32,434 bases of DNA from Anaerolineales bacterium (GTDB lineage: Bacteria > Chloroflexota > Anaerolineae > Anaerolineales > UBA11858), in NCBI GenBank assembly GCA_021161345.1, contig JAGHAU010000236.1, positions 1-32,434 on the forward strand. The letters run 5' to 3'. Numbering within the stretch: the first letter of the stretch is position 1; the number at the start of each line of letters is the position of its first letter. Shown here in pieces: positions 11,897-30,236 of the stretch. The position numbers were made by a program, and so were the translations under genes. The notes under the pieces were generated by a model, which worked only from the letters and a program-made list of their open reading frames with translations, made no database searches and had not been told where the DNA came from.

Positions 11897-11904
11897 AATC
11901 CTGT

Positions 11905-11970
11905 TTCCCGTCCCCCGTCTCCGGTCCCCGGTCACGATGCGTAGCATCCACCGGTCTCTTTCTCCCGTCG
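11905..11970 (-). repeat. array A of the GAC-heptamer intergenic repeat family, with embedded hairpin
   Basis: GTC at 11910, 11917, 11924 and 11931 (7-bp period), then 11954 and 11967; hairpin gatgc-gta-gcatc at 11936-11948. Confidence 0.7.
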
Positions 11971-12778: not shown

Positions 12779-12840
12779 TCATAACTCCAGTGAACAGTGT
12801 TTTCTTCATGATTGATTAATTCTAAATTGATTCGAATCTT

Positions 12841-12868
12841 GTCTCGGTCCTTCGTCTCCGGTCTTGTT
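12841..12868 (-). repeat. array B of the GAC-heptamer intergenic repeat family
   Basis: GTC at 12841, 12847, 12854 and 12861 (spacing 6,7,7), directly 3' of the lipoprotein stop. Confidence 0.6.
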
Positions 12869-13505: not shown

Positions 13506-13538
13506 TCCCGGTCTTCTGTCTTCCGTCCCCGGTCCTGT
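13506..13538 (-). repeat. array B-prime of the GAC-heptamer intergenic repeat family
   Basis: GTC at 13511, 13518, 13525 and 13532 (exact 7-bp period), directly 3' of the priA stop. Confidence 0.65.
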
Positions 13539-21702: not shown

Positions 21703-22140
21703 TTGAAAGCGATCCTTCAGCGAGTTCAATCGGGAAGTGTCTCGGTAGACGGGAATAAAATTGCCGAGATTCGGGCTGGCCTTGTGATCCTGCTGGGTGT
21801 TGGACCTGCCGACACTAAGGCTGAAGCGGATAAGTTGGCTCTGAAACTGGCCCAGATGAGGATTTTCCCTGATAATAATGGGAAAATGAATCTCTCTCTC
21901 CTGGATGTGAGCGGAGAAGCCCTGGTAGTGCCCCAATTTACTCTCTTTGCAGATACGAAAAAAGGCCATCGGCCATCATTTGTCCATGCGGGTCCTCCGG
22001 AGATCGCCAAACCACTTACAGATCATTTTGCTTCGGCGCTTCGAAAACTGGGTGTTCCCACCCAGGAGGGAGAGTTTGGAGCTCATATGCTGGTCGAGAT
22101 CCACAATGATGGTCCTGTGACGATTGAGGTGGAGGTATAG
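21703..22140 (+). CDS. dtd: D-aminoacyl-tRNA deacylase
   Basis: MKAILQRVQSGSVSVDG, LSLLDVSGEALVVPQFTLFADTKKGHRPSF, GEFGAHMLVEIHNDGPVTIEVE; TTG start. Confidence 0.96.
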   Translation: MKAILQRVQSGSVSVDGNKIAEIRAGLVILLGVGPADTKAEADKLALKLAQMRIFPDNNGKMNLSLLDVSGEALVVPQFTLFADTKKGHRPSFVHAGPPEIAKPLTDHFASALRKLGVPTQEGEFGAHMLVEIHNDGPVTIEVEV

Positions 22141-22212
22141 AGGGACGCTTCGCGTCCCGACCGGAGTAAAGAGACGGGATTGAAAAGACCGAGACAAAGA
22201 GACGGGAGAGAT
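22141..22212 (+). repeat. array C of the GAC-heptamer intergenic repeat family, headed by a hairpin
   Basis: hairpin gggacgc-ttc-gcgtccc at 22142-22158, then GAC at 22159, 22173, 22187 and 22201 (exact 14-bp period). Confidence 0.75.
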
Positions 22213-22230
22213 TGTGGGGCTAGAAAAAAC

Positions 22231-22590
22231 CTAATCCCTCAATACTTTCATAAATCTTGTGATCTTGTAAAATAGATTTCTTCCCAGTTTTCTCACACCT
22301 TCTAATTCGTTTATCGAGATGTAATTCCTTTTTTCTATCAGATCTATACATGCCACTGTCTCAAGAAAAGATCTCAAAGCCAAACTGAGGAAACGTATTT
22401 GTTCCTTATCAGATTGACCTGTTGATCCTTCTGCAATATTGAGAGCAATTGACGTGGCTGCCCTAATCACCTGTGAACTCAAATTGAATCTTTCTGGACC
22501 TGGCAAACAAGTTGCTAGATCATATATATGATCTATATAATCCAAGGCTAGCTGGTATACATATAATGATTGGAATTTATATTCACCCAC
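22231..22590 (-). CDS. four-helix bundle protein (23S rRNA-intervening-sequence protein / S23-like family)
   Basis: LYVYQLALDYIDHIYDLATCLPGPERFNLSSQVIRAATSIALNIAEGSTGQSDKEQIRFLSLALRSFLETVACIDL matches the S23/IVP pattern (SNIAEG-like core); GTG start preceded by a G-rich RBS. Confidence 0.88.
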   Translation of the reverse strand: MGEYKFQSLYVYQLALDYIDHIYDLATCLPGPERFNLSSQVIRAATSIALNIAEGSTGQSDKEQIRFLSLALRSFLETVACIDLIEKRNYISINELEGVRKLGRNLFYKITRFMKVLRD

Positions 22591-22608
22591 TCTTCCCCCC
22601 TTAATTGG

Positions 22609-22637
22609 ATTATGACAACTTTGAAATCAATTGTCTA
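22609..22637 (-). promoter_or_regulatory. candidate sigma70-type promoter of the four-helix-bundle gene
   Basis: on the minus strand TAGACA, 17 bp, CATAAT. Confidence 0.35.
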
Positions 22638-22661
22638 TGGGTGTGAGCAAAACAGTTTCTC

Positions 22662-22771
22662 CTCCGGTCTCTTTACCCCACCCCGTCTTGTTATTTCCGT
22701 CTTGCCACTCCGGTCTCTTTACCCCACCCCGTCTCATTATCTCTGTCTCGTTATCCCCGTCTCTTCAATCC
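22662..22771 (-). repeat. array D of the GAC-heptamer family with a 46-bp higher-order tandem unit
   Basis: 27-bp identical copies ctccggtctctttaccccaccccgtct at 22662-22688 and 22708-22734; GTC at 22667, 22685, 22699, 22713, 22731, 22745 and 22759 (18,14,14,18,14,14). Confidence 0.8.
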
Positions 22772-22794
22772 TTCCTGGTGGTAAAATCATCTCC

Positions 22795-23778
22795 ATGGCT
22801 GTCAAAATTACCAATCATCCCGGATTTCTTCCCATTCGGGATTTTGATGTGCGAACGGACCTGCTTTCAGTCTCTGATCTGGTAGAGCTGTGTTTTGCGG
22901 ACCGACTCTCTCCGGACGGGGAAGCCTTGCTGCGAAAAATGCGCTCCTCGGCTCATAACAAACGTTTTCAAGAATGGGCTTATTCAATGGCAGGCCGGGT
23001 GTCGATGCCCTTCACAGGGTATGTCTGGGAGGAAGATGAAGAGATCATTGGCAATCTTAGTTTAATTCCCTATCATGTGGGCGGCAAACAATTTTATATG
23101 ATCGCCAATGTGGCGGTCCATCCTGATTATCAACGCAAAGGGATCGCTCACTCGCTGGTCAACCGGGCTCTGGATTTCCTGCTGCCAAAAAGCCTGGACG
23201 GCATCTGGCTTCAGGTGGATCAGGGCAACCAGGCAGCGGTTGATCTGTATTTGCGGCATGGTTTTGTAGAAGTGTCCCGCCGTACCACCTGGATGTTAAG
23301 GCCCAATGACGTTCCCCGAGAATTCCTTGACTGGCGTGTGCCGGGTTTTACTGTGAAAGAGCATAAAGTAAGGCATTGGCCCCAACAGCGTAGATGGTTG
23401 GAGAATAACTATCCTCCCGAAGTGCGCTGGCATTTACCGCTCCGACCGGAATACCTGAGGGGAGGGTTTTCTGGTCGATTCTCCCGTCTGATGCTTCTGG
23501 ACCCCAAAATTTTCCAGTGGTCGGTTATGTCCGGCGATGAACTGATCGGCGTGGTTTCCTGGCAATCTTCCAAGACCAAGGCCGATTGGCTTTGGATTGC
23601 CTCTTCTCCAGAAACCGAAGGTGTACTATTGGATGCCTTTTTGCCCCATTGGATGAATGGATCTGGTTTTAAACGATCTTTAAGGTTAAATTTTCCAGCC
23701 AGGAAAACCAACCTCAGTCTTGAGTCTCACTGGTTTAAACCCACTCGCACCCTGATCTGGATGAAATACGAACGGTAA
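22795..23778 (+). CDS. GNAT family N-acetyltransferase
   Basis: NVAVHPDYQRKGIAHSLVNRALDFL acetyl-CoA motif; start at ATG 22795 because the ORF upstream to 22570 only translates repeat array D. Confidence 0.88.
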   Translation: MAVKITNHPGFLPIRDFDVRTDLLSVSDLVELCFADRLSPDGEALLRKMRSSAHNKRFQEWAYSMAGRVSMPFTGYVWEEDEEIIGNLSLIPYHVGGKQFYMIANVAVHPDYQRKGIAHSLVNRALDFLLPKSLDGIWLQVDQGNQAAVDLYLRHGFVEVSRRTTWMLRPNDVPREFLDWRVPGFTVKEHKVRHWPQQRRWLENNYPPEVRWHLPLRPEYLRGGFSGRFSRLMLLDPKIFQWSVMSGDELIGVVSWQSSKTKADWLWIASSPETEGVLLDAFLPHWMNGSGFKRSLRLNFPARKTNLSLESHWFKPTRTLIWMKYER

Positions 23779-29743: not shown

Positions 29744-29749
29744 TATACT
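29744..29749 (+). promoter_or_regulatory. -10 element of the fur-metal ABC operon
   Basis: TATACT immediately preceding the Fur-box palindrome. Confidence 0.45.
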
Positions 29750-29786
29750 TCCTTATTGATAATGATTATCATTATCAATAAGGAAG
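29748..29786. promoter_or_regulatory. 39-bp perfect palindrome containing a Fur-family box
   Basis: cttccttattGATAATGATTATCATTATCaataaggaag; 19-bp arms around a central T; the core at 29758-29776 matches the canonical 19-bp Fur box. Confidence 0.9.
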
Positions 29787-29792
29787 CGACCC

Positions 29793-30236
29793 GTGTCGGC
29801 AGATCAAACTTCTCAACTTCTCTCAAATTGGAAAAATTCCCTCCATCAACATGGTTACAGGGTGACCCGACCGCGCCTGCAGGTGATGGAAATCGTCGCC
29901 GCCACACGAATTCCGCTCACTCCCCAGGATGTTTATCATAAATCCCTGAATCTGGAATCTCCCCCGGGTATTGCCAGTGTTTACCGAACCCTGGAAATGC
30001 TGGATGTCCTGGGATTGATTCAGCAAATTCACCAGCCAGGCGGCTGTCATGGGATCTGGCCTGCAGTGGACGGACATAAACATCTGCTTATGTGCAGAAA
30101 TTGCGGCCAGATGCAGGTCATTGAAGGTAATGAAGAGATAACAGAGTACATCAGAAGGATAGAAGAAGATACCGGTTATGAAGTGGATGAGCATTGGCTG
30201 CAGTTATTTGGTATCTGCAGTGAATGCTCAAAATGA
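29793..30236 (+). CDS. Fur-family metal-responsive repressor (Zur/Fur/Mur-like)
   Basis: RVTRPRLQVMEIVAATRIPLTPQDVYHKSL...GIASVYRTLEML winged helix; CRNCGQ and CSECSK cysteine pairs; GTG start. Confidence 0.9.
   Translation: MSADQTSQLLSNWKNSLHQHGYRVTRPRLQVMEIVAATRIPLTPQDVYHKSLNLESPPGIASVYRTLEMLDVLGLIQQIHQPGGCHGIWPAVDGHKHLLMCRNCGQMQVIEGNEEITEYIRRIEEDTGYEVDEHWLQLFGICSECSK

Follow-up and report, generated by a model that had tools for sequence, protein, structure and literature searches.

A four-helix-bundle protein gene between inverted arrays of a short repeat that follows the protein subfamily

A small gene encoding a four-helix-bundle (4HB) protein of the PF05635 (23S-rRNA-IVP/S23) family, found across many bacterial phyla, usually lies between two arrays of a 7–9-nt DNA repeat in opposite orientation, and the length and core of the repeat unit follow the protein subfamily and not the host. 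Of 83 PF05635 genes from the order of the genome studied here, 52 have strongly complementary flanking arrays, as opposed to 0 of 159 other ORFs in the same loci. This points to a widespread, selfish-looking element made of a protein and a repeat that it is inferred to recognize. In the literature searched, which excluded subscription papers and preprints, none of the hits read links PF05635 to inverted arrays.

The 4HB gene and its flanking arrays at the dtd-GNAT junction

We analyzed a 32,434-nt stretch of DNA from an Anaerolineales bacterium (contig JAGHAU010000236.1), here called the window, from a 2.69-Mb assembly in 288 contigs that is 88.9% complete. A preliminary description had noted a 4HB gene bracketed by GAC-heptamer arrays in opposite orientation, filling the spacer between dtd and a GNAT gene like a self-contained cassette, and this observation is confirmed. 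The gene at 22231–22590 (−) encodes a 119-aa protein with a GTG start preceded by a purine-rich AAGGGGGG stretch. The protein matches PF05635 (87.9 bits, cut-off 33.8) and TIGR02436 (88.7 bits, cut-off 24), and has PDB relatives 2gsc and 2rld, of five chains each. Its left neighbor is dtd (21703–22140 (+), PF02580) and its right neighbor a GNAT acetyltransferase gene (22795–23778 (+), PF00583) that is 47–82% identical in the genus relatives.

Array C (22159–22206 (+)), the downstream arm, has GAC[CG]G units at 22159, 22173, 22187 and 22201. Array D (22662–22771 (−)), the upstream arm, has C[CG]GTC units at 22665, 22683, 22697, 22711, 22729 and 22757 and includes a 46-nt direct duplication (tandem repeat period 46/14). 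The stretches 22163–22206 and 22728–22771 form ungapped arms of 44 bp that are 77% complementary, a score reached by 1 of 1000 dinucleotide shuffles. The arms look like 7-mers in which alternate units have degenerated to a 14-nt spacing. A 17-bp hairpin (GGGACGCTTCGCGTCCC, 22142–22158) caps array C next to the dtd stop, and a search of Rfam returned no family there. A PADLOC search for anti-phage defense systems likewise gave no match.

Three gene-less arrays in the window, A (11903–11933 (−)), B (12839–12864 (−)) and B' (13508–13534 (−)), are real and use the same unit. However, each is in one orientation only, so that they are not clear MITEs as had been proposed.

The window's genome (G000) holds five PF05635 genes. 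A paralog with 71% identity on contig C208 has the same hairpin-GACCGG units, and a similar unit flanks the copies in two relatives, G007 and G001 (relatives are numbered from G001). The genes on contigs C89 and C115 have GAC/GTC-containing octamers and the one on C271 has GTAAGTA heptamers. In these, upstream and downstream arrays read as reverse complements of one another by eye, although the copy on C115 does not reach the strict score used below.

Generality of the arrays and their match to protein subfamily

In order to test whether this arrangement is general, we searched 61 genomes (the window's and 60 relatives) for PF05635, which is present in 47 of them with up to 22 copies in one genome. 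For 83 genes we compared the 150 bp upstream with the reverse complement of the 150 bp downstream. The mean score was 30.5 within a locus and 16.0 between mismatched loci. Fifty-two of 83 genes scored at least 26 compared with 0 of 159 other ORFs in the same loci (p=4e-30), whereas 31 of 83 fell below this cut and a few show an array on one side only. Of 123 size-matched ORFs only 3 passed the cut, and all 3 turned out to be further PF05635 genes, so the array criterion blindly found family members. These control ORFs rule out an artefact of intergenic position. Self-similarity of the flanks peaks at lags 7, 8, 14, 15/16 and 21 only, and the units have periods of 7, 8 or 9 nt.

A scan for the KDFRxLKVWEKSH subfamily, using a 7-sequence subfamily alignment since a 12-sequence family alignment was too diverse, returned 80 loci from more than 15 phyla, including Cyanobacteria, Bacteroidota, Acidobacteriota, Nitrospirota, Planctomycetota, Poribacteria and Patescibacteria. 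Most of the flanks examined show TCAGC/TTAGC/TCAGT-type heptamers upstream and their complement downstream, and 30 of 76 pass the strict cut. Six 4HB genes on named cyanobacterial plasmids also carry an array or its remnant on both sides. One of these, on Pseudanabaena galeata plasmid pPg_01, has long AGCTAAA arrays and lies between cas6 and cas4, where heptamer arrays could confuse CRISPR-association screens.

When loci are ordered by protein tree, unit length and core follow subfamily, with octamers for HTDLEVYQLAF and GFEDLECYQLAL, nonamers for KGFRKLxVWQRAH, and heptamers of distinct cores for others. The nonamer units of KGFRKL-type genes (loci L101 and L090; AAAGGTTTC) keep a reading frame, unlike 7- and 8-mers. 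The window's subfamily keeps a GAC heptamer down to 49% protein identity and across several families. Over pairs from different genomes and different junctions, protein similarity correlates with array similarity (r=0.226), while shuffling proteins within genomes gave at most 0.14 in 1000 trials (p<=0.001); these loci are not fully independent phylogenetically, which the within-genome shuffle addresses only in part. Copies in the same genome with dissimilar proteins have dissimilar arrays. At the pheS-pheT junction three genera carry a 4HB element (loci L117, L133, L135), each with a different unit (TTCGATA, GGTGAAT and the 8-mer AGTCGTTG), which suggests either a recurrent site or rapid unit turnover. 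At orthologous junctions the arms are only slightly better paired within a locus than across loci (p=0.02), which is weak support for concerted evolution of the two arms and we do not claim it.

We next asked whether arrays occur without the family, sampling genomes by pattern searches and selected stretches. A first pattern with period 8 mixed unit types. In 777 kb sampled from three relatives without PF05635 there are no period-7/8 arrays, while 800 kb from three with it contain 31, although these samples differ much (18, 12 and 1); no arrays of period 5, 10, 11 or 13 were found in any sample. PF05635 copy number correlates with YAGY heptamer arrays per genome (Spearman 0.71). At least four GAC-array matches were found in 9 of 9 genomes with a close window-type 4HB gene and in 10 of 52 without (p=5e-6; outside the window's family 2/2 versus 1/38, p=0.004). 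The clear exception is G038, a fragmented assembly of 600 contigs with 251 GAC-array matches in which no close window-type 4HB gene was found.

Gene-less members, junction states and orientation

The window's genome has roughly 20 gene-less loci with GAC arrays, including arrays A and B', with B being a shorter one. Several are inverted pairs, GAC then GTC, around short loops (contigs C169, C193 and C130). In G025, 13 of 13 close pairs read from listed coordinates have this polarity, which is also that of gene-bearing pairs. At the panB junction of the window's genus the element is intact in G000, G005 and G007, decayed in G004 and G001, reduced to a gene-less inverted pair in G003, G006 and one G009 copy, and absent in G002 and the other G009 copy. 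At the dtd-GNAT junction the window has the gene antisense and G007 has it in the sense direction, while G001, G003 and G009 have arrays or array-like units only and G004 shows neither gene nor clear array. In G002 (contig C92, locus L143) the same junction is occupied by a 132-aa IS200-like Y1 transposase gene (PF01797) bracketed by hairpins GCCGGGTGATAAATCACCCGGC and GCCCGGTCATTGATGACCGGGC. No target-site duplication or clean empty/filled pair was found, the junction spacers in relatives being too diverged to define one.

Where both neighbors point the same way, 105 of 112 4HB genes share that direction, with median gaps of 69 and 51 bp, so arrays fill the spacer. The window gene is among the seven exceptions. 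Predicted RNA folds pair the arms with each other through 41–57 base pairs, 52 in the case of the window. The sense bias suggests action or tolerance at the RNA level, which is an inference.

Interpretation and relation to known elements

We propose, with moderate confidence, that the block is one member of a pan-bacterial class of elements, a selfish gene-in-loop element related to 23S rRNA intervening sequences (IVS) but intergenic. Our comparisons show the architecture, the match of unit to subfamily, the gene-less derivatives of the same polarity, the states of insertion, decay and absence at one junction, and the sense orientation in operons. What remains inference, in the absence of binding, cleavage or transposition data, is that the oligomeric 4HB protein recognizes the repeated unit through several evenly spaced contacts, probably as RNA or single-stranded DNA, along with any processing or movement. 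The solved relative XCC0516 is a ring of five bundles (PMC4990558; Lin 2006; 2gsc), which makes contact with several evenly spaced units plausible. The TRAP ring reads spaced triplets in a similar way. In this view the transcribed arms would pair into a long imperfect stem with the gene in the loop, which would make insertion between operon genes tolerable and keep array and protein co-inherited; the antisense window gene does not fit this simply. Gene-less arrays would be remnants or copies propagated in trans. Since the element encodes no catalytic domain, spread would probably use a host or transposon enzyme in trans, of which an IS200-like Y1 transposase is the best candidate; reverse transcriptase (RT) is not required.

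The IVS that encode S23p/IVP in Leptospira and Coxiella share the protein family and the ORF in the loop of complementary arms, and are regarded as selfish. The Coxiella IVS even has tandem GACAGAT heptamers by the ORF, varying in number between strains, and is excised by RNase III (PMC4990558). In our case the insert lies between protein genes and not in a 23S rRNA gene helix, the arms are repeat arrays with a subfamily-specific unit, copy number reaches 22 per genome and gene-less copies are dispersed. We assign the protein to PF05635 but not the element to the 23S IVS, since it lacks their defining location; it resembles IVS elements and is probably related to them.

The preliminary interpretation, that the protein binds, processes or helps mobilize the repeat and that gene-less arrays are MITE-like members, is partly supported. 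Inverted arrays flanking 4HB genes in relatives and across phyla, a GAC unit specific to the window's subfamily, the concentration of GAC arrays in genomes that hold it and the existence of gene-less, MITE-like inverted pairs go beyond what was proposed, whereas binding, processing and mobilization stay hypothetical. The suggested enrichment of GAC arrays near 4HB genes generally is the wrong criterion, because other subfamilies carry arrays of other units, and the suggested link to Avd of diversity-generating retroelements is weak.

Among alternatives, a non-autonomous transposon moved by a Y1 transposase (RAYT-like), with arrays and terminal hairpins acting as REP-type ends and the 4HB protein only assisting, survives best but appears unlikely. 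Y1_Tnp is present in 43 of 47 genomes with and 4 of 14 without 4HB genes (p=8e-6), which could reflect a trans partner or shared genome plasticity, a Y1 gene occupies the dtd-GNAT junction in G002, and a hairpin next to GACCGG units caps the window element. However, there are four exceptions, including G009 (88% complete), with 10 4HB copies and 265 YAGY-array matches but no Y1 hit, and G054, likewise without one. In addition, co-occurrence is confounded by ancestry and general genome plasticity, and most 4HB elements lack the hairpins. RAYT genes and their REP/BIME repeats (GTAG/CGTC-tagged REPs) similarly show a protein gene bracketed by inverted copies of a dispersed short repeat with gene-less repeats elsewhere, but REPs are single palindromes and not tandem 7–9-mers, and the 4HB protein has no catalytic domain.

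It is also unlikely that the 4HB gene is a passenger, with heptamer arrays arising independently by replication slippage or REP-like spread and inverted arrays merely being tolerated landing sites. Arrays do occur without the gene, the dtd-GNAT junction holds arrays, a Y1 transposase or the gene in different relatives, and G038, G016 and G013 have many GAC arrays without a close 4HB subfamily member. This is contrasted by the absence of arrays from the sampled genomes without 4HB genes, by unit length and core that follow protein subfamily across phyla and within genomes, and by the same polarity of the arms. Equally doubtful is a regulatory RNA or operator bound by the protein for autoregulation in a TRAP-like manner, with gene-less arrays as targets in trans. 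Sense orientation with short gaps, unit specificity, the pentamer ring reported for XCC0516 (PMC4990558) and TAACTGA arrays upstream of start codons in Beggiatoaceae (PMC4679880) would agree with it, but 4HB genes decay at the panB junction (G004, G001), arrays or whole spacers vary freely between close relatives, unlike a conserved regulon, and junction genes share no obvious theme. A relic or satellite of a diversity-generating retroelement is very improbable, since, although PF05635 resembles Avd (PMC10053308), a homologous pentameric four-helix bundle, the protein scores 15.2 bits against the Avd cut-off of 80, there are no template/variable repeats, no RT was found in the window's genome or in 35 of 47 4HB-bearing genomes in total, including G055 (22 copies, 99% complete), and RT shows no association with 4HB genes in 61 genomes (p=0.5).

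PF05635 is a large family without a known function, and heptamer arrays are an old puzzle of bacterial genomes; tying each subfamily to its own repeat turns both into one testable question. If the association holds, it explains a widespread class of intergenic repeats, links them to rRNA intervening sequences and offers a family of small proteins with different short nucleic-acid specificities. More tentatively, it is possible that each PF05635 protein both recognizes and, in trans, builds or maintains tandem arrays, which would make the family the source of many bacterial heptamer arrays (the cyanobacterial STRR, TAACTGA and GGGAATC) and give it a common function. The TAACTGA arrays of Beggiatoaceae, for which a binding protein was postulated (PMC4679880), equal the AGTTATC unit of the KDFR-type subfamily (loci L195 and L215). 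GGGAATC repeats are described from Xanthomonas and Nostoc (PMC4692102); X. campestris has 186 such arrays (84 plus, 102 minus strand) with 70 inverted pairs and also encodes XCC0516. Both papers describe intergenic heptamer arrays without linking them to the 4HB gene, and the terms S23 and four helix do not occur in either.

Elsewhere in the window, at 29748–29786, a perfect 19-bp inverted repeat (CTTCCTTATTGATAATGAT / ATCATTATCAATAAGGAAG) lies just upstream of a Fur-family-like regulator gene at 29793 and a zinc/manganese-type ABC binding-protein operon, and looks like a metal-regulator operator.
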